Below are positions 12,197 to 32,593 of a DNA stretch of 37,108 nucleotides, one piece after another. Under the pieces are notes generated by a model. It was not told the DNA's origin, did no database searches, and saw only the letters and a list, made by a program, of their open reading frames with translations. Position numbers and translations under genes: made by a program. The stretch's first letter is position 1. Each line of letters opens with the position of its first letter. Source of the DNA: Lachnospiraceae bacterium (GTDB lineage: Bacteria; Bacillota; Clostridia; Lachnospirales; Lachnospiraceae); NCBI GenBank assembly GCA_016282915.1, contig JAEELW010000168.1, positions 1 through 37,108 on the forward strand, written 5' to 3'.

Positions 12197-13366
12197 TTAA
12201 GGCTCCTCCGCTGCCGCGAAACGGATGCAGAGATAGCCGTTCTCGAATTTCGCAGCTTCGATTTCTCTCCCCGAAAAGGCCTCCGGCATCGGGAACTTGC
12301 GGTTTTCGTTCTTCACACCCACGATCAGCTCGTTCCGGTCCTGCTCCAGTGTCAGTTCCTCCTTCTCCGCAAAAGGGAGATAGATCCGGAGCGTGGAATG
12401 CTCCCTGTCCACCCGGTAGATCTCCTCTTCAAACAGAACTGCCGAAGGATCCTTCTCTCCGTAGATCCGCGCCCCGACCTGCTTCAGCACTTCCATGGTC
12501 CGCAGTTCCGTATCCATCAGCTCCACATAAAAGCGCGGCACTTCGCTGAAGGATGTGCGGATCTCTTCCAGTCCTTCCTGCTGCAGCTTCTGCCATTTGC
12601 TGAAGTAACCCTCCATCGCTCTTTCCGGATAGATATGATTGACGATCACGGCATCCACATTATAACCGTACAGATAGAGGCAGGTGAAATTGCGCTTTGC
12701 CTCACTGATCACGATACGCTCCGGCGTGGTCACGACACGGAGGCTCACCGTCTTTTTATCCAGCATCAGATTCTGCAGGCGCTCCATTTTGTCCATCAGA
12801 TGCTCGATATCGTCAAAGACGCTGTCCCCGGGCATGGGGATCTTCATAAGCCCCTCGACCACCCGGCCGCCGGTCTTAACGAGGGCTTTCTCTACCGGGA
12901 GGAATCTTTTTATCAGGCCGGAAAGCCTCTCCGGATACTTCAGGAGCGAAAGCGTTTCGCCGGTCGGCGCGCAGTCCACAATGATCGTATCGTATTCGCC
13001 GCTTTCGTACACGTCCAGTATCCGGAACATCGAAAAGAGCTCTTCCAGCCCCGGAAATACCAGCAGTTCCTCGGCCTCGATCCCGCCGCCTCCCTTTGCG
13101 GTCAGCAGCCTTTTTAAATAATCCTTCATGTTTCCCCAGCTTTTTTCGCTTTCATAGACCGTGTCGATCTCCATGGCGTACAGGCGCTCCGTCAGCTTCG
13201 TCGCCTCCCGCCCGATCTTCACGCCGAAGGAATCTCCCAGGCTGTGAGCCGGATCCGTGCTCATCACGAGCACCTTCTGCCCGCTCTCCGCGATGGTGCA
13301 GGCGCTGGCACACGCCATGCTGGTCTTTCCTACGCCGCCTTTTCCCGTATATATGATCACTCTCAT
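12197..13366 (-). CDS. ArsA/Get3-like ATPase 1 with HSP20-like C-terminal domain
   Basis: P-loop ATPase of 389 residues. It has the deviant Walker A (GKGGVGKTS, 8-16), switch I (STDPAHSLGDSF), switch II (IIVDCAPTGETLSLL) and, in the last about 90 residues, a beta-rich domain like the HSP20-like domain found in bacterial ArsA homologues. There is one P-loop domain, so it should work as a dimer, perhaps with the second ATPase at 13718-14896; actinobacteria have comparable side-by-side Get3-like pairs. No metalloid pump or arsenic gene is near, so arsenite transport is not supported. The start at 13366 has AAAGGAG upstream. A 34-bp repeat array separates it from the upstream small gene. Client or cargo unknown. 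Confidence 0.88.
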   Translation of the reverse strand: MRVIIYTGKGGVGKTSMACASACTIAESGQKVLVMSTDPAHSLGDSFGVKIGREATKLTERLYAMEIDTVYESEKSWGNMKDYLKRLLTAKGGGGIEAEELLVFPGLEELFSMFRILDVYESGEYDTIIVDCAPTGETLSLLKYPERLSGLIKRFLPVEKALVKTGGRVVEGLMKIPMPGDSVFDDIEHLMDKMERLQNLMLDKKTVSLRVVTTPERIVISEAKRNFTCLYLYGYNVDAVIVNHIYPERAMEGYFSKWQKLQQEGLEEIRTSFSEVPRFYVELMDTELRTMEVLKQVGARIYGEKDPSAVLFEEEIYRVDREHSTLRIYLPFAEKEELTLEQDRNELIVGVKNENRKFPMPEAFSGREIEAAKFENGYLCIRFAAAEEP

Positions 13367-13488: not shown

Positions 13489-13725
13489 AACGATATCAAC
13501 CTTTTTTACGCTCTTTTTCTGCCCGCTCTCCGCTTCCGTCTTTGTTTCCTTCTCCTTCATTACAGCGTTTGCCACGCAGCCGGCCAGCATTTCTCCGAGC
13601 ATCTGTTTCAGCTCGTTTCCGATCACTCTCATATGTTCCGGCGTACGCTCCGGAAGCAGCGCCAGTATGGCTTTTTTCTGATACTCCGCCGCAGTTTTCA
13701 GTCTTTTCTTCATCTCTTTATTCAT
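13486..13725 (-). CDS. Small basic helical protein between the two ArsA-like genes
   Basis: 79-residue protein from the ATG at 13725, which overlaps the stop of the upstream ArsA-like gene by eight bases and is therefore probably coupled to it; an in-frame TTG at 13746 is a weaker option. No family recognised. The first half is predicted helical and basic, the middle (about 27-55) amphipathic with one Cys, and the tail is a Lys/Glu/Ser-rich, probably disordered stretch ending in VDIV. The place between two ATPases suggests a partner or adaptor, but that is inference from position only. The last codons touch the repeat array. Confidence 0.6.
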   Translation of the reverse strand: MNKEMKKRLKTAAEYQKKAILALLPERTPEHMRVIGNELKQMLGEMLAGCVANAVMKEKETKTEAESGQKKSVKKVDIV

Positions 13726-14896
13726 CCTCTTCACCGCCTTTCTCAAAGCTGATCCTCAGTTTCCCTTCCTCAAACGCCGCGCCGGAGACAACATAAGTTC
13801 TCAGGATGTTCGGCAGCGGGATGTTCCGTTTAAAGTTTCCGAGCTTGATCACGATATCATTCGCCGCCTGATACAGGTCGATATCCGCCTTGTCTGCGCA
13901 GGGGATGAAAAGTTCCAGACTGTATCCCGTTTCTGTCTTGGTAAAACGCTCCCTTTCGGTGATGATCCTTTTTCCGAATACATCCCTGTCTCCCAGAACC
14001 TTTTCGGCGATCCTGCGGATCGCCGCTTCGCCCCGCACTTCCTCGTCATACCAGGGGATCTCGCAGACCGGCAGCGCCGCAAAGCAGGCTTTCAGCTCCC
14101 CGATATACCCTTTCTGAATGTCGATCCAGCGATCAAAGAATTCGTTACCGATATCCGCCGGAAGGATGCGATTGATATACAGCCCGTCCACATTGAAATC
14201 GTACAGGTTCATATACATGTAGTTGCGCTTTGTCTCTTCTACCACCATTTTCTCCGGCGTTGTCACGATCCGGATACTCGTGGTCTCCCGGTCCTTTAAA
14301 AGCTCCTGCAGCTCCGCAAGCTTCAGATACATCTTTTCAATGTCGCTCATCGCTTTTTTATTCGGCATCTCCACCTTAAATACCAGCTTTGATACCGGCG
14401 CCAGGATACGCACGCCGATCTTTCCGATGGGAAAGAGTTTCTCCATATACCAGGAAAGCAGTTCGGGGAATTTCAGCAGCGACAGCGTTTCCCCGGTGGG
14501 CGCGCAGTCCACGATGATCCGCTCATACTCTCCGCTCTTATGGATCTCGGCGATCTTTAAAAGCGAGAACAGCTCCTCCATTCCGGGTATCATCCCCAGA
14601 TCCCTGATGCTCATGTCATTGACGCTTGCCAGCAGCTTCGTGAGGTACGTCATGATATCGGCAAAATCGTTCTCCATCACATATTCCGGATCGATCTCGT
14701 AGAGCGTAAGTCCCGGCATCACCTCTTCCGCCTCTTTTCCCAGCTTTTTCTCAAACAGATCTCCCAGATTGTGCGCCATATCCGTGCTTACCAGCAGCGT
14801 CTTCTTCCCTTCCTTCGCGCTTTTATACGCATGCGCCGCTGCCACGCTGCTCTTTCCCACGCCGCCTTTTCCCGTAAAGATCAAGATCCTGCTCAT
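13718..14896 (-). CDS. ArsA/Get3-like ATPase 2 with HSP20-like C-terminal domain
   Basis: P-loop ATPase of 392 residues, paralogous to the 12197-13366 protein over its length. Deviant Walker A is GKGGVGKSS (8-16), switch II is IIVDCAPTGETLSLL, and the beta-rich C-terminal domain is present. Switch I reads STDMAHNLGD: the usual Pro of DPAH is Met here, whereas the partner keeps Pro, which hints at an asymmetric heterodimer. The start at 14896 has AAAGGAG. Upstream are repeat array 2 and a candidate MarR operator (15131-15153). It is likely the first gene of a three-gene unit: this ATPase, the small protein, the other ATPase. Confidence 0.88.
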   Translation of the reverse strand: MSRILIFTGKGGVGKSSVAAAHAYKSAKEGKKTLLVSTDMAHNLGDLFEKKLGKEAEEVMPGLTLYEIDPEYVMENDFADIMTYLTKLLASVNDMSIRDLGMIPGMEELFSLLKIAEIHKSGEYERIIVDCAPTGETLSLLKFPELLSWYMEKLFPIGKIGVRILAPVSKLVFKVEMPNKKAMSDIEKMYLKLAELQELLKDRETTSIRIVTTPEKMVVEETKRNYMYMNLYDFNVDGLYINRILPADIGNEFFDRWIDIQKGYIGELKACFAALPVCEIPWYDEEVRGEAAIRRIAEKVLGDRDVFGKRIITERERFTKTETGYSLELFIPCADKADIDLYQAANDIVIKLGNFKRNIPLPNILRTYVVSGAAFEEGKLRISFEKGGEEDE

Positions 14897-16226: not shown

Positions 16227-17663
16227 TTATTCTCCTTCCGCTTTTACGCCGCCTTCTGAAACGCCCTTATCGTCTGCATTTCCGGGATCCGCGTTCAGCA
16301 TGATCTCCTCCGCGTCATAAAAGAGTTCCGCTTCCGTCCCGTGGGACGCAAACAAAAGACTCCGCCCCTCCAGCTTCAGACGTATCCAGTCCAGCGTCTT
16401 CTGCTTCGTCTCTTCATCCAGTCCGGTAAATGCTTCGTCCATGATCACCGCATCCGAGGGATGCAGCAGGGCACGCATCACGGCCACACGCCTTCTTTCC
16501 CCTCCGCTCAGTTCCGAAGCCGGAAGCATCAGGGTCCGTTCCGGAAGGAGCTTTCTCACTTCCGCCGCCAGATCCCCCGTGCAGCCTGCAAGCTTCAGGT
16601 TCCGCAGGGCATTGGCGCTTTCCACGAGACGGTCTTCCTGGAAGACCATGCTCAGCCTCCCCGCGGCAACGCTGCCCCGGTCCGGTATCACGGTCCCCGC
16701 AAGCATCCCGAGGAGCGTGCTCTTCCCCTCGCCGGACGGTGCCTTAAGATATGCGATCTTTCCCGCCTTAAGCTTTACCTCCGTATCGACAAGCGTCCTG
16801 CCCTCATAGCTTTTGACGATGCGCTCCGCATAGAGCGTATACCCTTCAGGCAGTCCGTCCGTAAAAGAAGCCCCCGTATTCAGCGCATCCCCTTCTCCCC
16901 CGCAGGTCTCCGGGCGCAGACAGGGCGCGGGAAACTTTGACAGCAGCTTAAGCAGGCGCATGATCAGGCGCTCCGTCAGGCTGCTCAGCAGAAGTATGAC
17001 GATGACCCAGGCAAAAACGCCCGCCGTGTTCAGATAGATCTTGTCGCGGTAAAGCCTTTCGCCGATACTGAATTCCGGCAGGCCGATGATCTCGGCAGCG
17101 ATGCCAGATTTAAAACACATCCCTAAAGAGACCGAGACCGCGGAATGAAGATAAGGCAGATACGCGGGACGGCAGATCCAGAGGAAACGGTCGATCGGGC
17201 GCAGCCGGAATACGGCAGCCATCTCAAGCAGCTCTTTGTCCGCGTGCGAAAGCCCTGTCTGCATATTGGAATAGATATTCGGAAACACCACCATGAGGCT
17301 GATGCAGAGCACGAGATAACGCGGTCCCCACCAGATCAGCAGTATCACCGCCACCGCCGTGACAGGGACCGATTTCAGAAAGCTGACAAAGGGCGCCAGG
17401 AACTCCTTCAGCCAGCCGTATCGCTGCACTGCAAACGCAAGCATGAAAGCAAGAAAAGAAGCCGCGAAAAAGCCGCCCAGTATACGCAGCAGGGAACCCA
17501 GCAGCGACTGCCAGAACGCCGCCTCCCGGAGCTTGACAAAAAGCTCCCGCAGCGTTTCGACAGGCGTCGCAAAATATATGGGATTGCTTACAAAAAGGGC
17601 GGTGATCTGCCACAGGCCCAGCCAGATGAGCAGTATCACCGCCTTCTTCAACTTATCTTTCAT
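16227..17663 (-). CDS. Fused ABC permease-ATPase of the NitT/TauT (SsuBC-like) type
   Basis: 478-residue protein that joins two normally separate importer subunits. Residues 1-245 are a SsuC/TauC-like permease with about six membrane helices and the ATPase-coupling loop around LLEMAAVFRLRPIDRF. After a Gly/Pro-rich linker (245-270) comes an SsuB-like ATPase: Walker A APSGEGKST (about 309-317; Ala replaces the first Gly), Q-loop VFQEDRL, signature LSGGERRR, Walker B VIMDEAFTGLD, H-loop ASHGT. ATG at 17663 overlaps the lipoprotein stop by four bases, so the two are coupled. Imported solute unknown; relatives carry sulfonates, nitrate or thiamine precursors. The fusion forces one ATPase per permease. 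Confidence 0.88.
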   Translation of the reverse strand: MKDKLKKAVILLIWLGLWQITALFVSNPIYFATPVETLRELFVKLREAAFWQSLLGSLLRILGGFFAASFLAFMLAFAVQRYGWLKEFLAPFVSFLKSVPVTAVAVILLIWWGPRYLVLCISLMVVFPNIYSNMQTGLSHADKELLEMAAVFRLRPIDRFLWICRPAYLPYLHSAVSVSLGMCFKSGIAAEIIGLPEFSIGERLYRDKIYLNTAGVFAWVIVILLLSSLTERLIMRLLKLLSKFPAPCLRPETCGGEGDALNTGASFTDGLPEGYTLYAERIVKSYEGRTLVDTEVKLKAGKIAYLKAPSGEGKSTLLGMLAGTVIPDRGSVAAGRLSMVFQEDRLVESANALRNLKLAGCTGDLAAEVRKLLPERTLMLPASELSGGERRRVAVMRALLHPSDAVIMDEAFTGLDEETKQKTLDWIRLKLEGRSLLFASHGTEAELFYDAEEIMLNADPGNADDKGVSEGGVKAEGE

Positions 17664-18628
17664 TCGGCTCCGTAATAAAAATCATCCACCGGAAGAGCGC
17701 CGCCCACCGAAGACGGATCCTGCTCATAGAGTACCTGCAGATAGCCCGCAAGCGCCGTCCTCATCTCGCTGCCCGAGATACTCACGATATTGCAGTAAGG
17801 GATCGCCTTTGCCGCGACCGGCGCCTTCTCGATGATCCCGGCCTCGGCCACATATCCGGAGGCCGTCTGTATATCCGAATTGACAAATGCCACATCCTCC
17901 GCATGATCCTTCAGAAAAGCGCTTACCGCATCCGGATGCTCCTCCAGAAACTCCTTACGCACAACGGTCACACCGGTCACGAGCCGGGAACCGTTATTTA
18001 AGGCTTCCCATTCCGCGGTCATATCCAGCACAACCGAAAGATCCTCGTTCTGATTGACAGCCACGGTCACAAAAGGCTGCGGCAGCATACCTACCGCCGT
18101 TTCATCCTCCGCCAGCAGTGCCGCCACTTCCGTTGCCTCCGACTTGAACTCGATATCCACCTTGTCGCTCAGACCGTTCTTCTCAAGAAGATAGCGCAGT
18201 ACATATTCCGGCGTGGTCCCGGCTCCCGTCGTATACACGGTACGACCCTCGAGATCCTTCATCCCTTTGATCCCGTGATCGCCGCTGACCATGTAAAGCA
18301 CGCCCAGGGTATTGATGTCGATCACGCAGATACCGCCTTCCGTCTTTTTGTACAGGACGGATGCCACGTTTGCCGGAATGAGCGCGATGTCCAGCTGCCC
18401 CGAGATCATCGAGGACAGGAGCACATCCGGCTGCGTCTCCATTGTGAAACTGTAATTGCTGTTTTCCTGCCCGTGGATCATGCGGATGATGCCGATCGAC
18501 GTAGGCCCTTTGAGTGAACCGACGCGTACGTTCACGTCGTCACGCCCGCCGCTTTCGTCTTTCGCGCATCCCGCGATCAACACAAGCATTGCCGCGAAGG
18601 CAATGATCCTTAAGAATGTCTTTTTCAT
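17660..18628 (-). CDS. NitT/TauT-type ABC substrate-binding lipoprotein
   Basis: 322-residue solute receptor. The signal peptide has the lipobox LIAGC (Cys at about residue 21), so the mature protein is lipid-anchored outside the membrane. The NMT1/SsuA-like fold is indicated by SLKGPTSIGIIRM near the start, GQLDIALIPANVASVLY, and TGAGTTPEYVLRYLLEKNG. Start at 18628 has AAAGGAG. It hands its ligand to the fused permease-ATPase directly downstream. It follows the hydrogenase-like/chemoreceptor gene by 69 bases, so it may be co-transcribed with that sensor. The ligand cannot be read from the sequence. Confidence 0.9.
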   Translation of the reverse strand: MKKTFLRIIAFAAMLVLIAGCAKDESGGRDDVNVRVGSLKGPTSIGIIRMIHGQENSNYSFTMETQPDVLLSSMISGQLDIALIPANVASVLYKKTEGGICVIDINTLGVLYMVSGDHGIKGMKDLEGRTVYTTGAGTTPEYVLRYLLEKNGLSDKVDIEFKSEATEVAALLAEDETAVGMLPQPFVTVAVNQNEDLSVVLDMTAEWEALNNGSRLVTGVTVVRKEFLEEHPDAVSAFLKDHAEDVAFVNSDIQTASGYVAEAGIIEKAPVAAKAIPYCNIVSISGSEMRTALAGYLQVLYEQDPSSVGGALPVDDFYYGAE

Positions 18629-18697: not shown

Positions 18698-20629
18698 TTA
18701 CGATTCCAGGACCTGTTTCAGCGAGTTCTCCACGCTGCTCGTGAGGTCCTGCATCATCTCGATGGAGGAGGACGTCTTCTCGCTGGATTCCACCAGGCTC
18801 TCCGCTCTCGAATTGACGCTCTCCACGATCTTCGTAAGCTTTTCCGATTCCTTGATCAGCTTTTCAATGGCTTCCTTGATATCGCTGTTGTTCTTGTTGC
18901 TGTCATCCGCGGTCGTCTTGGAATTCTCTGCCAGACTCTTGATCTCGTTGGCAACCACCGCAAAGCCGCGGCCCGCTTCTCCCGCGCGCGCCGCCTCGAT
19001 GGAAGCGTTGAGTGCCAGCAGGTTTGTCTGGTCGGAGATCGCGATCACGTCGGCGTTGTTGGCGCCGAGCTTCTCCAGATAGCCTTCAATATTTGACAGC
19101 ACTTCCTTCAGATTCTGTGCAAAAGAATCCACCTCGGCCATAGACTCGGAGATTCCGCTGGTCTGCTTTGCATTGTCGGCGCTGACCTTCTCGATCTGCC
19201 CGATGGTATCCAGCAGGTTGTCAAAATTCTCGCTGATCCCGGCAGACAGATTCGAATTCTTCTCGCTCATCTCCCTCTGGACGCGGCTCACCTCTTCGGC
19301 CAGCTCCATAGCCTTGTCCTTCTCCTCATAGGCTCTGTCCTTGATATAGTGAACGCAGTTGTGGATGTGGCTGAAACCGTTATGGATGGCAAAGGCCATC
19401 TCCCTGCAGGTGCTGTATCCGCAGCAGCCGCAGTCGATATGCCGCTTCTCCTGCGTATCCTTCTTCAGCGAACGGTATATGGCCTCGATCTCCGCCTCCG
19501 AAGGCTTCTTATATCCGCACTCCCTGCTTCTGTCGGTATATTTCCGTATAAAGTCGTCCAGGCGCAGACCGGCAAACTGGCGGTTGAGAGCTTCCAGTCT
19601 CTTTTTCGGCGTCAGCTCCCTGCCCCAGGCTGATTTTTTGGAATTGTTCTTGCTGTCGGAACGAATCTTCTGTATCCGCTCAAACACATCCTCGTTCATC
19701 GTCTTGCGGTTGTCGACGCCGGTCCCGTACAGACAGCCGTTGGTGCAGTTCAGCGCATCGATGAAGAGATAGGAAGTACGCCCGCTCTGGATACGGCTCT
19801 TGTTTCTCTGAAGGTATTCATACATATGATGCTCGCCTTCCATCTGGCGGACCAGCGCATCCTCGCCGAGAAGCCAGTAAACATTCTCTTTCAGACCGCC
19901 GGGCATCGGATAAATGGAACCGAGACCGTACTCGATCTCGTCCTTGTAGGGCTGCGCACCGCTTACCGGATGCTCCTTCAGATAGGCCACAAGCCGCGAG
20001 AACGTCAGGTTATAGGATACATATCCGTGGTTATTCGGATCGTCAATCTCGTTCTTCTTCGCGATGCAGGGGCTGATAAACGCCAGCTTATCGCTCACGT
20101 TCATGTATTTCTTCAGATAGACGGCCGCGCACATCATGGGACTCTGCACCGGCATCAGCTTGGGCAGCAGCTCCGGCAGATAGCGCTCGATGTAGCCCAC
20201 GACAGCCGGGCAGGGCTGGGAGATGCCTCCGAAAAACTTTCTCTCCGTGATGTATTTGATATAGGCCCAGGTCGTGATATCCGCTCCGAAAGAAACGCTG
20301 ATAAAACGGTTCACGCCCAGTTTCTTGAGCATGCCAAGATATTTCCCGTATTCCCCGGGATAGTTGGCAAGAAAGGCCGGTGCGATGAGAACGGAGATCT
20401 TCTGCCCGCGTTTCAGATCCGCAAAGAAGGTATCGACATCGTCGATATATTCCCTGGCCCCGTGCTCGCAGGCGTCAATGCAGGCGCCGCAGGCAATACA
20501 CTTTTTCGGGTCGACCTCGATGATATTACCCCTGTCCTTTTCGACCGCGATATTCGCGCCGATACAGCTGCAGGAACGGACACAGCGGTTGCATCCGATG
20601 CACTTCTCATTTGTCCTCACTAAACTCAT
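18698..20629 (-). CDS. [FeFe]-hydrogenase-like sensor fused to a chemoreceptor signalling domain
   Basis: 643-residue soluble protein. In order: two 4Fe-4S ferredoxin motifs (C10-C20 and C44-C54), an H-cluster-type domain (about 78-305), a CxxCxxxxC...C Fe-S module (C400, C403, C408, C425), a coiled coil, and an MCP signalling hairpin whose tip is [20 protein letters not shown] (about 531-550). Cluster-binding cysteines are C140 (SQPCP), C188 (SPCIAKK), C295 and C299 (NCTNGC). The cysteine that relays protons in catalytic enzymes (first C of TSCCP) is Pro here, so it is probably a sensor like group C enzymes, not a bulk H2 producer. Start ATG 20629 has AGAGGTGA; a GTG at 20638 lies within that site. 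It could report H2 or redox state to CheA. Confidence 0.88.
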
Positions 20630-20684
20630 TCCGCTCACCTCTCATGATCCGTATTTCGCAACAAATTCTATTACTGTACTTCTC

Positions 20685-22700
20685 TTATACGTGATACTGT
20701 GACAGATCCGAATTAATCTGATCCGAGTAGCGGTTCAGGTTCTCGGAGATATTGGCGATGTTGTCGGTCTCGGTGCGGAGCTTGTTGCTCTCCGTAACGA
20801 TCCTGTCGCTCAGGCCCAGCACCTGGGTGATGTTCGTCGCCTGTTCTTTGGTCGTCACCTCGTTTCCGGAAGCCACGCCGTTGATCCGCTCGATCCCGCC
20901 GGCGATGGTCGTGATACCGTTGGTCGCCTTTTCCACCTCATTGTAGATCAGATCGAAGGATTCGTTCACACCTTCAACCCCCTGCATGCAGGCCGCCATA
21001 TCCTTGACACAGATCGCAGCCATCTTATTGATGTTGTTGATGTTCATCGTCACTTCATCCACAAGGCGGCGTATCGTTTCGGTCTCCTGCGCGGACTGGT
21101 TGGCCAGAACGCCCACTTCCGTAGCAACGATCGCGAAGCCTTTTCCCATCTCCCCGGCTCTGGCCGCCTCAATGGAGGCATTCAGGGACAGCAGGTTGGT
21201 CTGGTCGGAGATCGCATTGATCGTATCGGTGATACCGGTGATCTCCTCGATGGATTTTGCGGTGGCGCGGATCAGCTCCGCAAGCTCTCCGATGGTCTGG
21301 TTCAGGGTCGTGACGTTCTTTGTCATGCCCTCCATATCATCCTTACCCTTTGCGGAAGCCGCTCTTGTCTTATCACAGAGGGAACGTACATCTTCCGCAT
21401 TCTTTGCCAGCTTGCCGGAAGTAGAGGCCAGCTCCGTTGCCGACTGGGCGATCTCCTCCAGAGAACCGTTCATTTCCGTCAGTGTCGAGTTCAGCTGCTC
21501 GATGGATTCGCCCTGGCTGCGGTTTGCTTCGGAAAGCGTATGGGAGATCTCGAAGCACTCGCCGGCGCGGTTGTTCATGGCGCCCGAGATCTCGGAAAGA
21601 CTGTTCAGCGTGGAACGCATCTTCTCGATATAATTGTTCATGCTCTCACTCAGCGTCGTGATCTCGTTGTTTCCTTCCGGAATGATCTTTACGGTAAAGT
21701 CGCCGTTGCTCAGATCCGTGATCCTCTCGGTAACCGTGGTGACCGGACGGATCGCCTTACTGATGATGAAGTACAGGATGATCGAAAGTATCGCCAGCAG
21801 GATGATGCCGCTTAGGAACGTCAGCAGCATGACCTTCCAGATCGTGTCGCCCAGAAGCGACGCAGGCACTGCGCTGACAACAACCCAGGAGGTGTCCTCA
21901 ATGTCCGTCGCCGTATACATCATGGCGCCGTCGTCAGTACTCTCTGTCACAACCTTGCTGTCATCCGGCGTAGCCGAGGTATTCAGGGAGCCGATGATGG
22001 AGGAAATGCCTTTTGCCACGGCATCATTCGAAGAAGAGATGTTTTCTCCCACGCAGGAGGGATTACTGCTGACAAGGATGTCCTTTGAATCCTTATTGAT
22101 GATATAATACTTCGCCTCAGGCGAGATCGAATCAAAACGATTGACCTTTTCGGCAACCTTGTCGAAGTTGATATCGCTGCTGAGCACCACGCCGTCGCGG
22201 ATCATGATGGAGCAGGCCAGGCAGGTCTTTCCGGTAGACGCATCCACATAAGGCTCGGAGGAATAGATCTGTCCCTTCTTGTCGATAGCTCCTTTGTACC
22301 ACGCCCTGTCCGTGAATACAAAGGTATCATCCGGGATCCAGCCGGAGCCGTCCAGGAATCTGCCGGTATCCCCGTAAGCCATATAGATATCCTGGGAATC
22401 CGGATCCTCCTGCGTGAGTTTCAGGAGCATTGCGAGCATATCGTCATAGGAAGGCTCCGGAATGTTCCGGATGACGCTTGCCGTCTGCTCCACACGCTCT
22501 TCGATGCTGCTCCACCAGTTATGGACCTCGGACGCATAGGTCACGGATTCTCTGGCTAAAATGTTGTTCGTGAGATACTGGATATTATCAACTGCGATCT
22601 TGATACTGATCTGCGTGATGATCACGATCAGTATGGCCACATAGATGATGATCTTGCTTAATAAGGATTTTTTGAGCGATTTTCTCTTTTTGACTTTCAT
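20685..22700 (-). CDS. Transmembrane methyl-accepting chemotaxis protein with dCache-type sensor
   Basis: 671-residue chemoreceptor: TM1 (about 15-35), an extracellular dCache-like domain (about 40-275) with the typical DRAWYKGA and [14 protein letters not shown] motifs, TM2 (about 285-310), HAMP (about 312-365) and a long cytoplasmic signalling hairpin with its tip near residue 500 ([21 protein letters not shown]). No C-terminal CheR-tethering pentapeptide is seen. Start at 22700 has a perfect AAGGAGG, and a consensus promoter lies at 22782-22810. The hydrogenase-like/MCP gene follows after 55 bases, so both chemoreceptors are probably made together and could mix in the same arrays. Ligand unknown; dCache domains often bind amino acids or related molecules. 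Confidence 0.92.
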
Positions 22701-22730
22701 TATGAATCCTCCTTGAATCTTTGTGTGATC

Positions 22731-22749
22731 CGGATCCTTCCGGGATCCG
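22731..22749 (-). other. Hairpin in the chemoreceptor leader
   Basis: CGGATCC and GGATCCG pair perfectly around five bases, about 30 bases before the MCP start and downstream of its promoter. It does not hide the ribosome site; a stability or protein-binding role is possible. Confidence 0.35.
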
Positions 22750-22781
22750 TCGCTCGAAATATCATTTCAATCGCAGTATAT

Positions 22782-22810
22782 ATTTTATATTTTATCTACA
22801 GATCTGTCAA
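22782..22810 (-). promoter_or_regulatory. Sigma-A promoter of the chemoreceptor/hydrogenase-like sensor unit
   Basis: TTGACA (22805-22810) and TAAAAT (22782-22787) are 17 bases apart on the minus strand, about 80 bases before the MCP start. It is near-consensus, so expression is probably by the housekeeping factor rather than by a motility sigma factor. Confidence 0.7.
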
Positions 22811-22811
22811 T

Positions 22812-22872
22812 AAAAACAAAGAATGCACACAACTCCGCCCCGCCTCGGGAAGCGTATAAATGCGTGCATCCG
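22812..22872 (-). terminator. Weak candidate terminator after queF
   Basis: GATGCAC and GTGCAT can pair around an inner CCCG/CGGG hairpin, and the minus strand then reads a T-rich stretch just before the chemoreceptor promoter. The structure is imperfect, so this is tentative. Confidence 0.3.
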
Positions 22873-22882
22873 TTTGCCTGAT

Positions 22883-23377
22883 CTATCTGTTATCCACTTT
22901 CTCCGGGTACATGTCATGCTTCGTCATCCGTTCCCAGGCCACTTCTTCCCATTTCGTCCCGGGTTTTCCGTAATTACAATAGGGATCGATGGAGATCCCG
23001 CCCCGCGGAAGGAATTTTCCCGTCACCTCGATATACTTGGGATCCATGACTTTGATCAGATCCTTCATGATGGTATTTACGCAATCCTCATGAAAATCCC
23101 CATGGTTCCTGTAGGAAAAAAGGTAAAGCTTCAGTGACTTGCTCTCGACCATTTTTTCACCCGGCACATAGGAGATGATGATCGTCGCGAAATCCGGCTG
23201 TCCCGTGATCGGGCACAGGCTGGAAAACTCCGGGCAGTTGAATTTCACGAAATAATCGTTCCCCGGATGCCGGTTGTCAAAGGTCTCCAGCAGTCCCGGA
23301 TCATAAGTGGCCGGATAAGCCACCTGATGGTTTCCGAGTTTTGTCAGTCCTTCTTTTTCTCTTTCTCTCTCACTCAT
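22883..23377 (-). CDS. queF: NADPH-dependent 7-cyano-7-deazaguanine reductase
   Basis: Reduces the nitrile preQ0 to the amine preQ1 in queuosine tRNA modification. At 164 residues it is the short (type I, Bacillus-like) form. The catalytic Cys55 in [13 protein letters not shown], Asp62, the ESKSLK NADPH motif (78-83) and H96-E97 in FHED are all present and in the same positions as in Bacillus subtilis QueF. The start at 23377 has GGAGGAG and overlaps the transporter stop by eight bases. It is the last gene of queC-transporter-queF. Confidence 0.96.
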
Positions 23378-24062
23378 TTTTTTCTCCTCCCGGTCGGATC
23401 ATTCTTGCAAGATAGATAAACGGCGTATCAACAAGCGCCACAACGGCTTTAAACAGATAGGTGGTGATCAGGATGCTGAAAAAGACCCCCGTCGGATAAG
23501 TCCCCCAGAATGCCAGAAAGGTAAAGATCACCGTATCCACGGCCTGGCTGATCAGCGTGCTCCCGTTGTTGCGGAGCCACAGCTTCGACTTGCCGTCCCC
23601 GGTCTTCTTCCAGATGAAATGATACAGGAAAACGTCGATATTCTGGCTGCAGATAAAGCCCGTCAGGCTGGCGATCGTGATCCTCGGCACCAGACCGAAC
23701 ACCGTGACCAGGCTCTCATTGACGTAATCGTTGGCGTTCGGCGTAAACAGAAGGATCAGCTGCGTTCCCAGAAGCCACAGGAGCATGACCGAAAAACTGT
23801 ACAGCACGGCGTTCCTCGCTTCTTTTTTCCCGTATTTCTCGGAAAGGATATCCGTCACGAGAAAAGTCGACGCATACAGCACGTTTCCCGCCGTGGTCGA
23901 CAGACCGAAGAGATCGACGCATTTACAGACGGCGATATTCCCAAGCAGCGTTCCGAAGATCGCAAAAGCAAAAAGTCCGTTCTTCCCAAACAGCCGGTAG
24001 AGCAGCAGCACGCTCCCCAGATAGACCAGTACACTTAAGACAAACAGCAGTTCATTCGGCAT
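23370..24062 (-). CDS. yhhQ: YhhQ/VUT-family queuosine precursor transporter
   Basis: 230-residue integral membrane protein with about six helices. The family signature is seen in [27 protein letters not shown] (positions about 57-83; here given in two overlapping parts of the motif, the key being [13 protein letters not shown]) and in the [21 protein letters not shown] segment near 140. YhhQ proteins import queuine or the preQ0/preQ1 bases. It lies between queC (four bases upstream) and queF (overlap of eight), so it belongs to the operon. This suggests salvage of deazaguanines as well as synthesis. Confidence 0.92.
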
Positions 24063-24065
24063 TTC

Positions 24066-24758
24066 TCAGATTCCTTTCTCATATACGACGGGATCCTCCA
24101 GGCCGTTGCTCCGGAAAGCCCGTATCCTGTCCCTGCAGGTGCCGCACACGCCGCAGGCTTTTTCGTTTCCTTCATAACAGCTCCAGGTCAGTTCAAAGGG
24201 AACCGAAATCTCCGTCCCCATCGCCACCACCTCGGCCTTGCTCTTATCGATAAAAGGCGCCACGACTCTCAGTTCTTCGCCGCTCCCGATGCGGATCGCT
24301 TCGGAGATCGCCCTGTTGAACACCACACTGGTATCCGGATAAGCGCTTCCCGCCGCATCGTCCGCATGTGCGCCGTACCAGATCTCCGCGCAGCCGTGGC
24401 TTAACGCTATGGACGCGGCCGAGGAAAGAAAGAGTCCGTTCCGGAAGGGCACATAGGTGTTCACGGCTTTTCCCTCCGTTTTCTTCAGCTGCTCCGCATA
24501 CTCCTCATGCGGGATCTCTTCCGTGGAGCCCTGCAGCAGGCTGCAGTTGCTGTCCTTAAAGATCTCGCCCAGATCCAGCGTGATCCTCTTTACGCCGTAA
24601 TGCGCCGCAAGCTTTTCGGAAGCCTTCATCTCCTTATCGTGCTTCTGCCCGTAATATACGGACAGGGCCAGCACTTCTTCCGCCCCGTATTCCTTTACCG
24701 CGAGCCCCAGGCAGACCGAGCTGTCCAGGCCGCCGCTGAAGAGCACCAATGCTTTCAT
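24066..24758 (-). CDS. queC: 7-cyano-7-deazaguanine synthase
   Basis: Makes preQ0 from 7-carboxy-7-deazaguanine, ammonia and ATP. The 230-residue protein has the PP-loop SGGLDSS (8-14), the YYGQKHDKE segment, and a C-terminal zinc site with four cysteines (CYEGNEKACGVCGTC, about 190-204). The start at 24758 has GGGAGAAAAGGG. It is the first gene of the operon, with a strong promoter (24914-24941), a pseudoknot-like leader and an intrinsic terminator before it. queD and queE are not in the window, so they must be elsewhere or the pathway starts from imported precursors. Confidence 0.96.
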   Translation of the reverse strand: MKALVLFSGGLDSSVCLGLAVKEYGAEEVLALSVYYGQKHDKEMKASEKLAAHYGVKRITLDLGEIFKDSNCSLLQGSTEEIPHEEYAEQLKKTEGKAVNTYVPFRNGLFLSSAASIALSHGCAEIWYGAHADDAAGSAYPDTSVVFNRAISEAIRIGSGEELRVVAPFIDKSKAEVVAMGTEISVPFELTWSCYEGNEKACGVCGTCRDRIRAFRSNGLEDPVVYEKGI

Positions 24759-24784
24759 CCCTTTTCTCCCGATTTCTTTTGGCC

Positions 24785-24821
24785 AAAAAAATTATAGCTT
24801 TACAAAACGCAAAGCTATAAT
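24785..24821 (-). terminator. Intrinsic terminator in the queC leader (attenuator)
   Basis: A perfect 11-base stem (24791-24801 with 24811-24821, nine-base loop) is followed on the minus strand by seven T. It lies between the queC promoter and the queC start, about 30 bases before the coding region, so it can only act as an attenuator. Together with the upstream pseudoknot it fits a riboswitch that ends transcription when precursor is plentiful. Confidence 0.85.
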
Positions 24822-24849
24822 CATAAATACACGGTATCATAATCATAGT

Positions 24850-24891
24850 CCTGGTTTTGTTTAACGACAGGATGGTACAAACGAACTGTCG
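24850..24891 (-). promoter_or_regulatory. Candidate preQ1 riboswitch aptamer (class I-like)
   Basis: On the minus strand CGACAG (24886-24891) pairs with CTGTCG (24865-24870) around a 15-base loop that begins TTCG and contains GTTT; an A-rich tail follows (TTAAACAAAACC) whose AAAC can pair with the loop GTTT, giving a compact H-type pseudoknot. Short stem, TTC at the loop start, ACC in the loop and an A-rich tail are traits of preQ1-I aptamers. The gene context (queC, yhhQ, queF) and the terminator downstream agree. The consensus match is partial, so the class is uncertain. Confidence 0.6.
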
Positions 24892-24913
24892 GTATATAAA
24901 GCATACGCTGCCT

Positions 24914-24941
24914 ATTATATACAAAGTATCTTAAAAGTCAA
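24914..24941 (-). promoter_or_regulatory. Sigma-A promoter of the queuosine operon
   Basis: TTGACT (24936-24941) and TATAAT (24914-24919) are 16 bases apart on the minus strand. Transcription would start near 24907, just before the candidate aptamer. The -35 is only a few bases after the stop of the upstream sensor gene, with no terminator between, so some read-through into the leader is possible. Confidence 0.75.
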
Positions 24942-24945
24942 TGCG

Positions 24946-27537
24946 CTATTTCAGGCCCGGAACAAAAGCGATGGCTTCCTCCGGCATCAGCGGCTTGCTG
25001 AAATAGTAGCCCTGTATGGTATCCGCTCCGAAATCCTTCAGGCGGTAATACTGCCATTTTTCCTCCACGCCCTCGATGGTCATCTCCTTATCCAGATCGT
25101 GGGTCAGGCGGATCACGTCATTGATAAAGGAATCCTTTCCGTCCACGAGATAATTATCCACCAGGGATTTATCCAGCTTGATCACATCCACGGGGATGTA
25201 GGTCAGGTAGGCCAGGGACGAATAACCGGTACCGAAATCATCCATGAGCAGACGTATCCCCATATCCTTAAATCGCCCGAAGAGATCTTCCGTCTGTGAG
25301 TTACGGTCCAGGAAGATGCTTTCCGTGATCTCGATCTCGATATACTTTGCCGGGATATCATATTCATCCAGCAGCTTCTGAAGGAAATCCACATAGCCCG
25401 CATCGCTGATCTGGTTGCTGGAAAAGTTTACCGACACCGGATACAGCGTGCGTCCTTCATCACGCCACGCCGCCAGCTGACGCACGACCAGTTCGGTCGT
25501 AATACGGCCGTTCCTCCAGATCCAGCCGCATTTTTCCGCAACGGGGATGAATTCTCCCGGGCCTATCCCCTTTGTCTTCAGACGGATCAGGGCTTCATAG
25601 CCATACAGTTTCAGCTTCTGCGCATCCACCTTCGGCTGGTATACCATGTAAAAGCCGTCGTTTTCAAAAGCTTCCTTTATGCATTCGCGTATGTATTTTT
25701 CCCGCCTTGCCTTTTCCTGCAGTTCCTCACTGTAAAAGAAGATGCGGTCGCGGCCGAGGTTCTTGGCCACAAACATGGCTTCCTCGGCATTGTTGATATG
25801 GTCCTCCACTCCAAGGATGCCGTCCGCGTTGCACACGCCGATGCTCACCGACATATGCAGCTCGATCGATCCCGAAACATAAGGTTTTGCAAAGACCTCC
25901 TGTATCAGTTTCAGGGACGGGTGATCCTCCGTCATGGGTTCGTTCAGCATGATCAGGAACTGGTCGCCGCTGTAGCGCGAGAGCAGCCAGCGCTTCTCCA
26001 GCGCCAGAAGCTTCAGATCCATCGCCACTTTCTTCAGGATATCGTCCGCCGTTTCATGTCCGTAGGTCGCGTTGATCCCCTTAAAACCTTCGATGTCCAC
26101 CATGACATAGGAGACGCTGTTCCAGGTCCCTTCGGCTTCTTTCAGGAATTCCATGGCGTAGCGGCGGTTAAAGATATCCAGCAGCTCGTCGTGCTGCGCC
26201 TTGTAGATCAGGTTCTGATGCTCGTTCTCCACCGCATTCTTCAGATAATGCACGCAATTGTCGCGGTGATTGAAACCGTTATAGATGGCTTTCGCCATAT
26301 CCATACAGCTTTCGTATCCGCAGGAACCGCAGTTGATCCTGCGGGATGCGTTGCTGTCCTTGCCCATGGAGCGGAAGATGTGCTCCAGCTCATTCCGGTC
26401 AGGCATGCGTATAACGCATTCCCCGGAAAGATCCCGGTAATGCCGCAGATAATCGGAAAGCTCCAGCTTCGAGAACTGGCGGTTCAGCGCTTCCAGCCGC
26501 TGCTTTGGACTTAAGGAGCGCGATACGGCGGACGTGGTACTGTCCGTGATCACCTTTTCCCGGATCTTTAAGAGATTAAAGAGCGCGCGGTCCGTCGCCG
26601 AAAGCTCCGGATCCGTGGCCGTGCCGCACAGACAGCCGTTCTCGCAGTTCAGTGCGTCGATAAAAAGAAAGGGGATATCCTTGTCCGCGATGGACTGCGC
26701 GTGCGTCTTAAGATACTCAAACATGCGCCGCTCGCCTTCGATCTGACGGATGAAGGCATTGTCCCCGAGGAACCAGCGCACATGATCCCTGAGCCCTCCG
26801 GGCATGGGATAGATCGTTCCTAGACCGTATTCCACCTCGTCGTCGACGGGATCTCCGCTGATCCCGCGCTCCTCCACCGCCTTCATCAGCTGCCGGAAGG
26901 TCACGTTGTAATCGATCAGGCCTGCGTTTTTCGGATCGTCGATCTCCAGCTTCTTTGCGATACAGGGACTCAGGAAAGCGAAACGGTCCGTAATGCCCAT
27001 TTCCTTTCTGGCGTATATGGCCGCGCACATCAACGGACTCTGTACCGGGAAGAGATTCGGCAGAAGCTCCGGAAGATATTTCTCGATATAAGTGACTACG
27101 ACGGGGCAGGGCTGCGAGATACCGCCCGTAAAGCCGTGCTCCTGAATATAACGGATGTAGCCCCAGGTGGTGATATCCGCCCCGAAAGCCACGTTGATGA
27201 TATGACGCACGCCCAGGGCTTTCAGGCCGCCCAGCACTTTTCCGTATTCCTCCGGATAGTTCGCGCGGAACGCGGGCGCGATCAGCAGCGAGATCTCTTT
27301 TCCGGCGGCCAGATCCGCGAGGAAGGCATCAGTATCGTCCTTATATTCCCTGGCTTCATGCTCGCAGGCGTCAAAACAGGCACCGCAGGCCACACATCTC
27401 GCGGGATCGACGATGATACGCGATCTTCCCTCCTCATCGGGATCCGTAGAGATGCAGGCGCCCATGGCGCTGCAGACATTGATGCATTTATTACAGCCTA
27501 CGCAGTTTTCATTTGTATAGATGAGTCCTTCTGTCAT
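24946..27537 (-). CDS. [FeFe]-hydrogenase-like sensor fused to GGDEF and EAL domains
   Basis: 863-residue soluble protein. Two ferredoxin motifs (C12-C22, C48-C58) lead into an H-cluster-type domain (about 82-305) with C144 (SQPCP), C192 (SPCIAKK), C298 and C302 (NCENGC), then an Fe-S module (C403, C406, C411, C428), a GGDEF domain (about 445-602) and an EAL domain (about 615-860). GGDEF is degenerate: SGDQF at 523-527 and DIE for the metal site. EAL looks active: YEALIR (E648), NFSSNQ, EITES, DDFGTG and TIEGVEE. So it probably degrades c-di-GMP under control of the Fe-S part. The input part closely matches the 18698-20629 sensor, with Pro again in place of the proton-relay Cys. Start has GAGGAGG. 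Confidence 0.9.
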   Translation of the reverse strand: MTEGLIYTNENCVGCNKCINVCSAMGACISTDPDEEGRSRIIVDPARCVACGACFDACEHEAREYKDDTDAFLADLAAGKEISLLIAPAFRANYPEEYGKVLGGLKALGVRHIINVAFGADITTWGYIRYIQEHGFTGGISQPCPVVVTYIEKYLPELLPNLFPVQSPLMCAAIYARKEMGITDRFAFLSPCIAKKLEIDDPKNAGLIDYNVTFRQLMKAVEERGISGDPVDDEVEYGLGTIYPMPGGLRDHVRWFLGDNAFIRQIEGERRMFEYLKTHAQSIADKDIPFLFIDALNCENGCLCGTATDPELSATDRALFNLLKIREKVITDSTTSAVSRSLSPKQRLEALNRQFSKLELSDYLRHYRDLSGECVIRMPDRNELEHIFRSMGKDSNASRRINCGSCGYESCMDMAKAIYNGFNHRDNCVHYLKNAVENEHQNLIYKAQHDELLDIFNRRYAMEFLKEAEGTWNSVSYVMVDIEGFKGINATYGHETADDILKKVAMDLKLLALEKRWLLSRYSGDQFLIMLNEPMTEDHPSLKLIQEVFAKPYVSGSIELHMSVSIGVCNADGILGVEDHINNAEEAMFVAKNLGRDRIFFYSEELQEKARREKYIRECIKEAFENDGFYMVYQPKVDAQKLKLYGYEALIRLKTKGIGPGEFIPVAEKCGWIWRNGRITTELVVRQLAAWRDEGRTLYPVSVNFSSNQISDAGYVDFLQKLLDEYDIPAKYIEIEITESIFLDRNSQTEDLFGRFKDMGIRLLMDDFGTGYSSLAYLTYIPVDVIKLDKSLVDNYLVDGKDSFINDVIRLTHDLDKEMTIEGVEEKWQYYRLKDFGADTIQGYYFSKPLMPEEAIAFVPGLK

Positions 27538-28685: not shown

Positions 28686-28728
28686 ATAAGCGTTGAAGCA
28701 GGCGTTCACCCCGGGGAGGTTTTCAGAG

Positions 28729-30147
28729 ATGAATGAGAAAAAAAGCAAAAACGCAAAAATGATCCGTATGTGCGTCGATATCGCCATGGTGATCCTGATG
28801 CCGCTGCTGATGGCCTATTCCCTGGTCGGCGAGCTGCTGCACGAGATCATCGGCGTAAGCCTTTTTGTTCTGTTCATCACGCATCACGTGCTGAACCGTA
28901 AATGGCTCTCATCCCTGAAACAGGGAAAATGGACGGCGCTGCGCGTCGTCAATACCGCAGTCAATGTCCTGATGTTTCTGCTGATGCTCGCGATGATGGT
29001 GAGCGCGCTCATCATCTCCAACTATCTGTTTGTATCCCTTAAGCTCGGCGGGGCCGCCATAGGACGCGTGCTGCACCTTGTCGCCGCAAACTGGCTTTTT
29101 GTACTCATGTCGCTCCATCTGGGGCTTCACATGAATACCGTGAGCACCTACTTCGGTATCGGTCCGCACAAAACGCTGCGGCGCGTACTTTCCGTTGTCT
29201 TTGCCCTGATCGCCGTATACGGCTGCTATGCGATGATAAAGCGCAGCATGCCGTCTTATCTGTTCCTGACGCAGTTCTTCGCGTTTCTGGACGACTCCGA
29301 ACCCGTCGTTTTCTTTCTTCTCGACTATGTGAGCATCATGATCTTTTTCGCAGTCGCCGCATTCTGGGGCGCGCGTCTTCTGACCCTGCCGCGCACCCGG
29401 CGATCCAAAGAGGACGGAACGAAAGCCGCTAAAGCCCCGAAAAAGAAACGTCTGAAAGTACTGCTGATCCTTGCGGCCCTCGCTCTCGTCGCCGGTATCG
29501 TCTGGGGCGTTCCTTACCTGCGACGGCATTTTAAAACGGTAACGATCGACAGTAAGATGGCCACCGCCATGCCCGCCGTGGAGCTGTCCGGCAGAACCCT
29601 CACCGTCCAGTTCACGCGCGTCGGAAATACGGACTTTGCCCCCGATGTGGATGCGGTCTCTTCCGCTTCGCTCATGCTCGATGAAAACGGCTCTCTTGTG
29701 GGAAACGCCGGGCTGATCGCACAGATGGTGCAGAACGCTGTCGGCGGGGACGTCTATCCCATACGCGTAAAGGAACACTATCCTTCTTCCTATGCGGACA
29801 CGATCAGCGTAGCCAGCAGAGAATTCAAAAGCAGCTCGTTCCCCGAACTGACGGGCAGCGACGCTTTTCCGGATACCGCCGCCTACGAGCGCATGATCCT
29901 GGTCTTCCCGCTCTGGTGGAGCACAGTCCCCAAAGCCGTGGAAGCTTATCTTTCACAGCAGGATCTGAGCGGCCTGAAAGTATATCTCATACTCACGCAC
30001 GGCGGCGGCGGAAAAGGCAGCGTACCGGCCGATCTTTCCGCCATGCTCAGGGGCGCGGTTCTGGACGAAAACATCCTTCTGATCTATGACGACGACGCCG
30101 ACGAAGCTGCCGGCAGGGTTTACGAATGGCTGAAAACGATAGACTGA
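28729..30147 (+). CDS. DUF4405 membrane protein fused to a flavodoxin-like domain
   Basis: 472-residue protein. Residues about 12-225 form five to six membrane helices of the DUF4405 type, with His pairs in opposite helices (LLHEIIG and ITHHVL; HLVAANW and LHLGLHM) that are likely b-heme ligands. A Lys-rich linker and a further helix (about 250-270) lead to a C-terminal flavodoxin-like domain (about 285-472) with the FMN phosphate loop TRVGNT and the later FPLWWSTVP and LTHGGGG loops. The layout suggests electron transfer between membrane heme and a flavin. Start ATG 28729 has GGGGAGGT; an in-frame TTG at 28693 is rejected. It is alone on its strand here, so its partner is unknown. Confidence 0.82.
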   Translation: MNEKKSKNAKMIRMCVDIAMVILMPLLMAYSLVGELLHEIIGVSLFVLFITHHVLNRKWLSSLKQGKWTALRVVNTAVNVLMFLLMLAMMVSALIISNYLFVSLKLGGAAIGRVLHLVAANWLFVLMSLHLGLHMNTVSTYFGIGPHKTLRRVLSVVFALIAVYGCYAMIKRSMPSYLFLTQFFAFLDDSEPVVFFLLDYVSIMIFFAVAAFWGARLLTLPRTRRSKEDGTKAAKAPKKKRLKVLLILAALALVAGIVWGVPYLRRHFKTVTIDSKMATAMPAVELSGRTLTVQFTRVGNTDFAPDVDAVSSASLMLDENGSLVGNAGLIAQMVQNAVGGDVYPIRVKEHYPSSYADTISVASREFKSSSFPELTGSDAFPDTAAYERMILVFPLWWSTVPKAVEAYLSQQDLSGLKVYLILTHGGGGKGSVPADLSAMLRGAVLDENILLIYDDDADEAAGRVYEWLKTID

Positions 30148-31885: not shown

Positions 31886-32593
31886 TTATGAAGGCCGTCC
31901 CAGATAGTAGCCCTGAAAGAGGTCCACCCCCAGGGCCATAAGGCAGTCCAGCTCCTCCTTGGTTTCCACGCCTTCTGCTACGACCAGGATGTTCATTGCG
32001 TGAAATTCGGGGAGCAGCGCTCTTACGTTTTCCTGCTTCTCCGCGATATGATCGATACCGCTGATCAGGGTACGGTCGAGTTTTACGATATCCGGGGACA
32101 TGGTTTTGACCATATCCATATTGTTTATGCCGCAGCCGAAATCATCCAGCGACAGAAGGTTATCCATGAACTTTACGGACTCCTTCTTCACTTCCCAGTG
32201 CTTGGGCGAAAAATAGGGGTATTCCAGATTCTCGATGATCATGCTCCCGCGGATCTCTTCCCCGAAATACTCCAGAAAAGCGTCTGCCTCTTCCTGTCTC
32301 ATGCAGTCGCAGGGGAAGGAATTGATCGATACCCTTTCCTCATAGCCCCGCAGGAAATAGGCCTGCATGGCCCCAAAAAAAGTAGCCACTTCAAGAACAT
32401 GAAGCTTATCCTTTTTCTCATATTTTTCGATCAGTTCCGTTACGGTCATCTCTGCCGGACGCATGAGCGCTTCCCAGGCATAAACGCTTTTTGCATCTGC
32501 CTTAAAGATCGGCTGAAAAACATATTCGATCGTCAGCTCTCCGAGCGCTTTCAGGATATCCTTATCCAAAGGCAAATGATCATAATAAATCAT
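31886..32593 (-). CDS. Stand-alone EAL-domain protein, probable c-di-GMP phosphodiesterase
   Basis: 235-residue protein that is only an EAL domain. Catalytic landmarks are present: YVFQPIF, WEALMRP (the EAL motif), SINSFP, IIENLEY, LDDFGCG, KLDRTLI and AEGVET, then QGYYLGRP at the end. So c-di-GMP hydrolysis is likely. No sensor or membrane part is visible; control would come from expression or partners. Transcription probably ends at the terminator at 31803-31833. It is divergent from aspS, with 241 bases between the two start codons. Confidence 0.9.
   Translation of the reverse strand: MIYYDHLPLDKDILKALGELTIEYVFQPIFKADAKSVYAWEALMRPAEMTVTELIEKYEKKDKLHVLEVATFFGAMQAYFLRGYEERVSINSFPCDCMRQEEADAFLEYFGEEIRGSMIIENLEYPYFSPKHWEVKKESVKFMDNLLSLDDFGCGINNMDMVKTMSPDIVKLDRTLISGIDHIAEKQENVRALLPEFHAMNILVVAEGVETKEELDCLMALGVDLFQGYYLGRPS

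Follow-up and report, generated by a model that had tools for sequence, protein, structure and literature searches.

Two hydrogenase-like iron-sulfur signal proteins with a common group D-like input and separate MCP and GGDEF-EAL outputs in a Lachnospiraceae genome

Introduction

A 37,108-nucleotide contig of a Lachnospiraceae bacterium (GCA_016282915.1, JAEELW010000168.1) bears on the way in which sensory [FeFe]-hydrogenases pass on their signal, for it encodes two proteins in which the candidate partner lies on the same chain as a hydrogenase-like input. We analysed this contig as a whole (C35, 1-37108; hereafter the window). In P0001 the input is joined to the signalling hairpin of a methyl-accepting chemotaxis protein (MCP), and in P0002 to the GGDEF and EAL domains of cyclic di-GMP (c-di-GMP) signalling. 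What does the common input read, and do both outputs answer the same cue? The most likely function, in our assessment, is soluble sensing of redox state or H2, passed on to two outputs.

Results

One input, two outputs

P0001 and P0002 carry the same input, in which a pair of ferredoxin clusters is followed by the H-domain of [FeFe]-hydrogenases and by a Cx2Cx4Cx16C iron-sulfur (Fe-S) module (Table 1). The two inputs are 57% identical over 432 aligned residues (E 0.0), which excludes a chance match, and they agree at the Fe-S ligand positions and at the H-domain sites P, S, K and L. The architecture of both fusions is secure. An initial annotation, made from the letters alone, had proposed two genes with one input and different outputs, and the alignment and Pfam domains bear this out; the CxxCxxxxC module that it described could be refined to Cx2Cx4Cx16C in both proteins. 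Its coordinates hold for P0002. For P0001, its boundary at 20629 is an in-frame ATG three codons inside a gene that starts with GTG, and it left the minus strand of both genes unstated.

The AlphaFold2 model of P0001 reached a mean predicted local distance difference test score (pLDDT) of 87.2 and a predicted template modelling score (pTM) of 0.72, and its 50 best PDB folds in Foldseek were all [FeFe]-hydrogenases. Its output is modelled as a hairpin (helix 429-551, turn near 552, helix 553-645), with a pLDDT of 92-93 at the joint (residues 421-450) and of 66-79 across most of the hairpin. As in MCP chemoreceptors, the signalling tip is conserved, and CheA and CheW are encoded in the genome. 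The model of P0002 had the same mean pLDDT (87.2) and a pTM of 0.59, and its top PDB folds were GGDEF-EAL or EAL proteins together with [FeFe]-hydrogenases. All catalytic EAL motifs searched for were found in P0002 (EALIR, VNFS, DDFGTG, IKLD, IEGVE and QGYYF). An intact GG(D/E)EF signature was not found in this protein, which has SGDQF instead; because the signature is degenerate, cyclase activity is doubtful, and the GGDEF domain is probably not a cyclase. Of the GGDEF-EAL output first proposed, the EAL part is supported by its motifs. In both models the helix toward the output begins at residue 429, straight after C428, so that the C-terminal cluster is predicted to lie at the root of the signalling helix.

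Table 1. Features of the two fusion genes and of their surroundings (window coordinates)
Feature	Coordinates	Strand	Basis or detail
P0001, soluble [FeFe]-hydrogenase-like MCP fusion	18698..20638	-	646 aa, starting with GTG; 20629 is an ATG in frame
P0001 ferredoxin pair, residues 7-62, two CxxCxxC...C sets	20453..20620	-	Pfam Fer4
P0001 H-domain, residues 80-305, motifs SQPCPAVV, DALNCTNGC	19724..20401	-	Pfam Fe_hyd_lg_C, 5.2e-32
P0001 Cx2Cx4Cx16C Fe-S module, residues 401-429	19352..19438	-	Pfam FeS PF04060
P0001 signalling hairpin, residues 430-646	18701..19351	-	Pfam MCPsignal 533-643, 3.5e-26; AlphaFold2 model
P0002, [FeFe]-hydrogenase-like GGDEF-EAL fusion	24946..27537	-	863 aa
P0002 ferredoxin pair, residues 11-63	27349..27507	-	Pfam Fer4
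P0002 H-domain, residues 81-305, motifs SQPCPVVV, LSPCIAKKLE, DALNCENGC	26623..27297	-	Pfam Fe_hyd_lg_C, 8.9e-29
P0002 Cx2Cx4Cx16C Fe-S module, residues 401-429	26251..26337	-	Pfam FeS
P0002 signalling helix, residues 429-448	26194..26253	-	AlphaFold2; begins directly after last Fe-S cysteine
P0002 GGDEF domain, residues 447-598, signature SGDQF	25744..26199	-	Pfam, motif scan
P0002 EAL domain, residues 620-849	24991..25680	-	Pfam, 1.2e-57
P0003, transmembrane-type dCache-HAMP-MCP receptor	20685..22700	-	Pfam; dCache below Pfam cut-off
Terminator-like hairpin, 15 pairs + T-run	24790..24822	-	between P0002 and queC-queT-queF

Conserved sites and hydrogenase class of the input

We searched 298 Lachnospiraceae genomes (at least 90% complete) with a profile of the input (E<=1e-60) and found it in 60; a scan of a wider collection covered the best 80 of at least 264 confirmed relatives. 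Truncated or broken sensor loci (L048, L161, L175, L176, L177, L182, L189) and the HydA of L197 were dropped before counting, leaving 151 rows, 145 after removal of identical ones and 144 after removal of L052.

Conservation was counted over these 144 aligned modules, with group A and B rows for comparison. The four C-terminal cysteines were retained in 144/144 modules, the four H-domain ([4Fe-4S]H) cysteines in 143/144 (exception L207) and all eight ferredoxin cysteines in 142/144 (one change in L025; L168 is cut), in agreement with the Fe-S binding that the initial annotation had assumed. The exact Cx2Cx4Cx16C spacing was matched by pattern in 142/145; in the three misses (L052, L057, L061) the N-terminus is cut or long and the motif falls outside the scanned stretch. 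The C299 column held P in 139/144 and C in 0/144, the M353 column S in 139/144, the M497 column L in 140/144 and the lysine column of the H-domain K in 140/144. In true hydrogenases this lysine contacts the diiron site, and C299 is the proton-relay cysteine. Pfam detected no PAS domain in P0001 or P0002, and one relative of the GGDEF-EAL type (L143) has a PAS domain at its far C-terminus.

The Cx2Cx4Cx16C motif is common to hydrogenase groups C and D; TamHydS of group D, a group without PAS, has M353 replaced by Ser and M497 by Leu, and TmHydS of group C has Gly and Ser at these positions (PMC8163306, Land et al. 2020). The window pair shows the traits of group D (M2e), namely two N-terminal [4Fe-4S] motifs, Cx2Cx4Cx16C, absence of C299, Ser/Thr at M353 and no PAS, and the PAS domain found behind the Fe-S module in group C (M2f) was not detected in the pair by Pfam. 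Because of Ser/Leu at M353/M497, the missing C299, the Cx2Cx4Cx16C motif and the lack of PAS, the module is group D-like. Judged by these residues, it fits group D rather than the PAS-type group C, with which it had initially been compared.

Several relatives are unusual. L198:4889-6244 is a stand-alone input that lacks an output domain and nests among kinase fusions, like a free protein of the TamHydS type. L057:3370-9159 (1929 aa) and L061:3688-8172 (1494 aa) are long frames with about 770-880 additional residues ahead of the sensor module. L162:4848-6824 and L207:3349-5967 are very divergent, and both keep the C-terminal Fe-S cysteines; the H-domain of L207 has lost one cysteine.

Outputs, tree and link to chemotaxis

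Among the 145 distinct modules the output was MCP in 105, GGDEF-EAL in 27, histidine kinase in 12 and none in 1; labels were assigned by motif pattern (L079, MCP, by eye), and twelve proteins were checked by Pfam. In ten relatives analysed by Pfam, the kinase types were hybrid kinases that have receiver domains and in some cases Hpt as well, and the MCP type L157 carried an additional receiver domain. On a quick tree, which came with a long-branch warning and had three group A and B rows as outgroup, P0001 fell in a clade of 7 rows, all MCP, and P0002 in a clade of 11 rows, all GGDEF-EAL (both starred, support 100). Since these clades are separate, the pair did not arise by recent duplication. 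A larger GGDEF-EAL set (21 rows, support 87, unstarred) was nested within a starred, mostly MCP set, and the tree contained 10 output changes (9 when the outgroup is not counted as a state) compared with 41.6 in shuffles. It follows that one input has exchanged its outputs several times.

The initial annotation had proposed a search for genomes with both fusions, and these were found: MCP and GGDEF-EAL types occurred together in 7 of the 298 genomes, that is, in 7 of the 8 GGDEF-EAL genomes (P = 2.4e-5, kinship ignored; 57 of the 60 carriers classed). The closest relatives of P0001 and P0002 both lie in genome G258, on separate contigs, so the two genes do not make up a fixed locus. The proposed link of the MCP fusion to chemotaxis also gained support, as CheA was present in 58/60 carriers compared with 94/238 other genomes (P = 1e-17, kinship ignored). 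In the window's genome CheA, CheB, CheW, FlhA and a sigma factor are all encoded on one contig, and two CheW-receiver proteins lie away from it. The architecture, ligand sites, common input, output motifs and the presence of CheA are features read directly from the sequence.

H-cluster maturases

With cut-offs of E 1e-60 for HydG, 1e-50 for HydF and 1e-40 for HydE, these maturases were found in 26/60, 30/60 and 31/60 carriers, respectively. Sensors from maturase-free and maturase-bearing genomes (30 rows each) had nearly equal motifs: the lysine column was kept in 27/30 rows from maturase-free genomes compared with 29/30 from genomes with all three maturases, and the H-domain cysteines in 29/30 compared with 30/30. 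As a control, TSCCPGW, a motif of true hydrogenases searched as a DNA pattern, was found in 102 genomes. HydG was present in 53 of these and was not found (E<=1e-60) in 49, including the single-contig genomes G194, G160 and G267. Because genomes with TSCCPGW hydrogenases also often lack HydG, the absence of maturases does not single out the sensors, and we dropped the argument that no maturases means no H-cluster as proof. In the published acetogen survey, hydG was missed in several Clostridium acetogens (PMC9431212). The idea that group A proteins with TSCSPGW are dead hydrogenases was rejected, as the best PDB match, HydA1 (7q4v), has the same motif; 7q4w, with the same sequence, is named A. 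woodii in the match list.

Within the stretch covered around each sensor, genes for hydE/F/G occurred in 5/148 distinct sensor loci (154 in total; L192 and L193, which hold no sensor, were left out), compared with about 0.26 expected (P = 9e-6) under a rough model in which half of the genomes have one hydE/F/G cluster in 3 Mb. L024 has the order hydE-hydG-hydF-sensor with 125 bases between hydF and the sensor gene, the sensor precedes hydG by 22 bases in L032 and by 44 bases in L069, and other genes separate the sensor from hydE/F/G in L013 and L062. Hydrogenases also occur near sensors: in L135, from a genome without HydE/F/G, a group B-like hydrogenase lies 287 bases upstream, and L197 has a group A HydA nearby.

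Some hydF genes have nitrogenase-like neighbours. In L236:3557-8216, hydF adjoins genes for a NifD/E-like protein and for a NifH-like ATPase that falls below the NCBIfam cut-offs, and in L230, L231 and L232 it adjoins NifD-like proteins; HydG was not found in the genomes of these four loci. A NifD-like gene was present in 42/298 genomes, and in 37 of these 42 HydG was not found (P = 1.6e-6); the set beside hydF may be a way of assembling the hydrogenase cofactor without HydG. It was rejected as a HydG substitute for the window pair, as the window's genome has no NifD-like gene (E<=1e-30).

Gene layout of the window

The window belongs to a 3.85-Mb genome that is 98.2% complete in 181 contigs. 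P0001 and P0002 are both on the minus strand, and the stretch that separates them holds P0003 together with queF, queT and queC, which are queuosine genes. P0003 lies 46 bases upstream of P0001, and the two are likely to be in one transcript. The hairpin in Table 1 is weak evidence for a terminator, with 11 such matches in the region compared with 9.7 in shuffles. In 27 inspected loci (of 154 sensor loci), no queuosine gene or other non-sensor neighbour from the window was convincingly recurrent; among close relatives (L009-L011) neighbour genes did recur.

Elsewhere the window contains two further genes of c-di-GMP type, a lone EAL protein (31886-32593) and a GGDEF protein close to where the contig ends (36488-37066). 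Tandem ArsA-type ATPases (12197-13366 and 13718-14896) each have a C-terminal ArsA_HSP20 domain. A single-frame fusion of an ATP-binding cassette (ABC) permease and ATPase (16227-17663) adjoins an SsuA-like binding protein (17660-18628, below cut-off), and a flavodoxin domain is fused to a DUF4405-like part just under the Pfam cut-off (28693-30147, plus strand).

Discussion

We infer that clusters are bound, what the signal and its direction are, and that both outputs answer one cue. The input would bind two [4Fe-4S] clusters at its N-terminus and one at its C-terminus, and between them would lie an H-domain in which the [4Fe-4S]H site is complete and the proton-relay cysteine is absent. It would read the reduction level of the cell through H2 at the H-cluster, electrons from ferredoxin, or both. 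The state of the input would change the conformation near the C-terminal cluster, and the last cysteine of that cluster would stand at the root of the output helix. In P0001 this helix would be one arm of the MCP hairpin, tuning CheA and through it swimming; in P0002 it would set the EAL phosphodiesterase activity and through it c-di-GMP. We consider it probable that P0001 and P0002 are soluble members of a shuffled family of Fe-S signal proteins, in which a group D-like input reads redox state or H2 and serves two outputs. That a single H2 signal feeds a single circuit is a reasonable, though unproven, extension.

Several observations weigh against a redox/H2 sensor of this kind. None of HydE/F/G exceeded the cut-offs in 28/60 carriers, and HydG was not commoner in carriers (26/60) than in other genomes (107/238; odds ratio 0.94, P = 0.88). 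In the window's genome, HydF and HydG were not found over cut-off and HydE, which reaches the end of the 3.2-kb contig C102, was the only maturase; a group B hydrogenase is present there. For H-cluster assembly, the ligands are kept in the family, and two of the maturases are missing at these cut-offs from the genome in question. The same-genus genomes G003 and G280 had no sensor at E<=1e-60. Finally, the C-terminal cluster of TamHydS was not reduced by H2 (PMC13104023, 2026).

The maturase counts would suit a redox sensor devoid of a diiron site, in which the H-domain too holds only a [4Fe-4S] cluster and the signal is reduced ferredoxin or oxidants rather than H2. The near-equal motifs in maturase-free genomes fit this as well, as do G195, G207 and G212, which have a sensor, no H-domain match (E<=1e-45) and no maturase, and G287, with the same pattern as judged by absence from the match list. 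The eukaryotic relative Nar1/CIAO3 offers a precedent, an H-domain-like fold without a diiron site. Yet the maturase test failed its own control, hydE/F/G genes lie in more sensor loci than expected, and the lysine that contacts the diiron site in true hydrogenases is almost invariant; we consider a diiron-free sensor unlikely. It is a livelier possibility, though not one that we favour, that P0001 and P0002 sense different things despite their common fold and form no common circuit. Their separate starred clades and the two G258 contigs of their closest relatives speak for such a split, against which stand the Fe-S ligands and the P, S, K and L of the H-domain, identical in both proteins.

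We regard as highly improbable that the fusions are remnants, with H-domain and output uncoupled and domains shuffled in the absence of selection. The neighbours of the window that fail to recur in 27 relatives' loci, the patchy presence within the genus, the degenerate GGDEF half and a sensor copy of G084 that is split into two frames are all compatible with decay. They are outweighed by 16 cysteines that are conserved almost completely across 144 modules, by outputs that cluster on the tree, by the presence of EAL and MCP motifs and by the strong association with CheA.

Returning to the shared redox/H2 sensor, we tentatively put forward a bolder version, which we think speculative. The C-terminal [4Fe-4S] domain may be a portable joint that passes the state of the H-domain to a helix, and Lachnospiraceae may have connected it to receptors that act on CheA, to hybrid kinases and to phosphodiesterases of c-di-GMP; in this genome a single H2 or reductant reading would steer both swimming and c-di-GMP, and in maturase-free species the module would be a pure redox sensor without a diiron site. 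If so, the fusions would reveal the step that is lacking in the picture of signalling by group D [FeFe]-hydrogenases. Outputs of at least three types lend themselves to assay (control of CheA, kinase, hydrolysis of c-di-GMP), and the predicted joint is at the same residue in the window pair. With the partner on the same chain and assayable outputs, the transmission of H2 or redox signals could be tested directly. The outcome would bear on whether H2 or redox state guides the swimming and surface life of gut fermenters.

Comparison with known systems

Among the closest known systems is TamHydS of Thermoanaerobacter mathranii (group D/M2e; PMC8163306, PMC13104023), described in PMC13104023 as the sole characterised enzyme of its group. 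Like the window pair, it has two N-terminal [4Fe-4S] motifs, the H-domain and Cx2Cx4Cx16C, and like the input module it lacks PAS and C299 and carries S in place of M353 and L in place of M497. No output is fused to TamHydS, whereas the module described here continues directly into an MCP, hybrid kinase or GGDEF-EAL part. PMC13104023 keeps a structural signalling role open and asks which proteins interact with TamHydS. Group C/M2f proteins (TmHydS and the Ruminococcus albus sensory hydrogenase) resemble the input in cluster layout and in the missing C299, but differ from the window pair in their PAS domain and, in TmHydS, in the S and G that replace M497 and M353 (PMC8163306).

The initial annotation described sensory [FeFe]-hydrogenases as known mainly with PAS/kinase partners and the pair as a possible new kind of circuit. 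Linkage to MCP is already known: HydDB lists [FeFe] group C2 as 'Chemotactic (putative)', with its role given as undetermined (PMC5037454), and P0001 matches this class by description, a hydrogenase-like input linked to MCP. A survey of acetogens repeats the C2 definition and discards such matches (PMC9431212). P0002, in contrast, fits no class in the HydDB table, C2 included (PMC5037454). The excerpts of PMC8924675, PMC12578642, PMC6163223 and PMC6776011 describe no GGDEF or EAL fusion, and no [FeFe]-GGDEF-EAL fusion was found among the titles and abstracts listed from open-licence papers, which is weak evidence of absence. The [FeFe]-GGDEF-EAL fusion appears, as far as this search reaches, to be a new variant. 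A putative link from hydrogenase to c-di-GMP exists in [NiFe] group 2c, 'Diguanylate cyclase-linked (putative)' in HydDB (PMC5037454); its metal site is unrelated, and it is linked to a cyclase rather than fused to an EAL phosphodiesterase.

In its order of domains P0002 resembles DosP and other sensor-GGDEF-EAL proteins, which place GGDEF between a cofactor-bearing sensor and EAL, and such proteins were among its best structural matches in Foldseek. DosP, an O2 sensor by its NCBIfam name, senses at a heme-PAS domain, whereas the sensor part of P0002 is the Fe-S/H-domain module that it shares with P0001.

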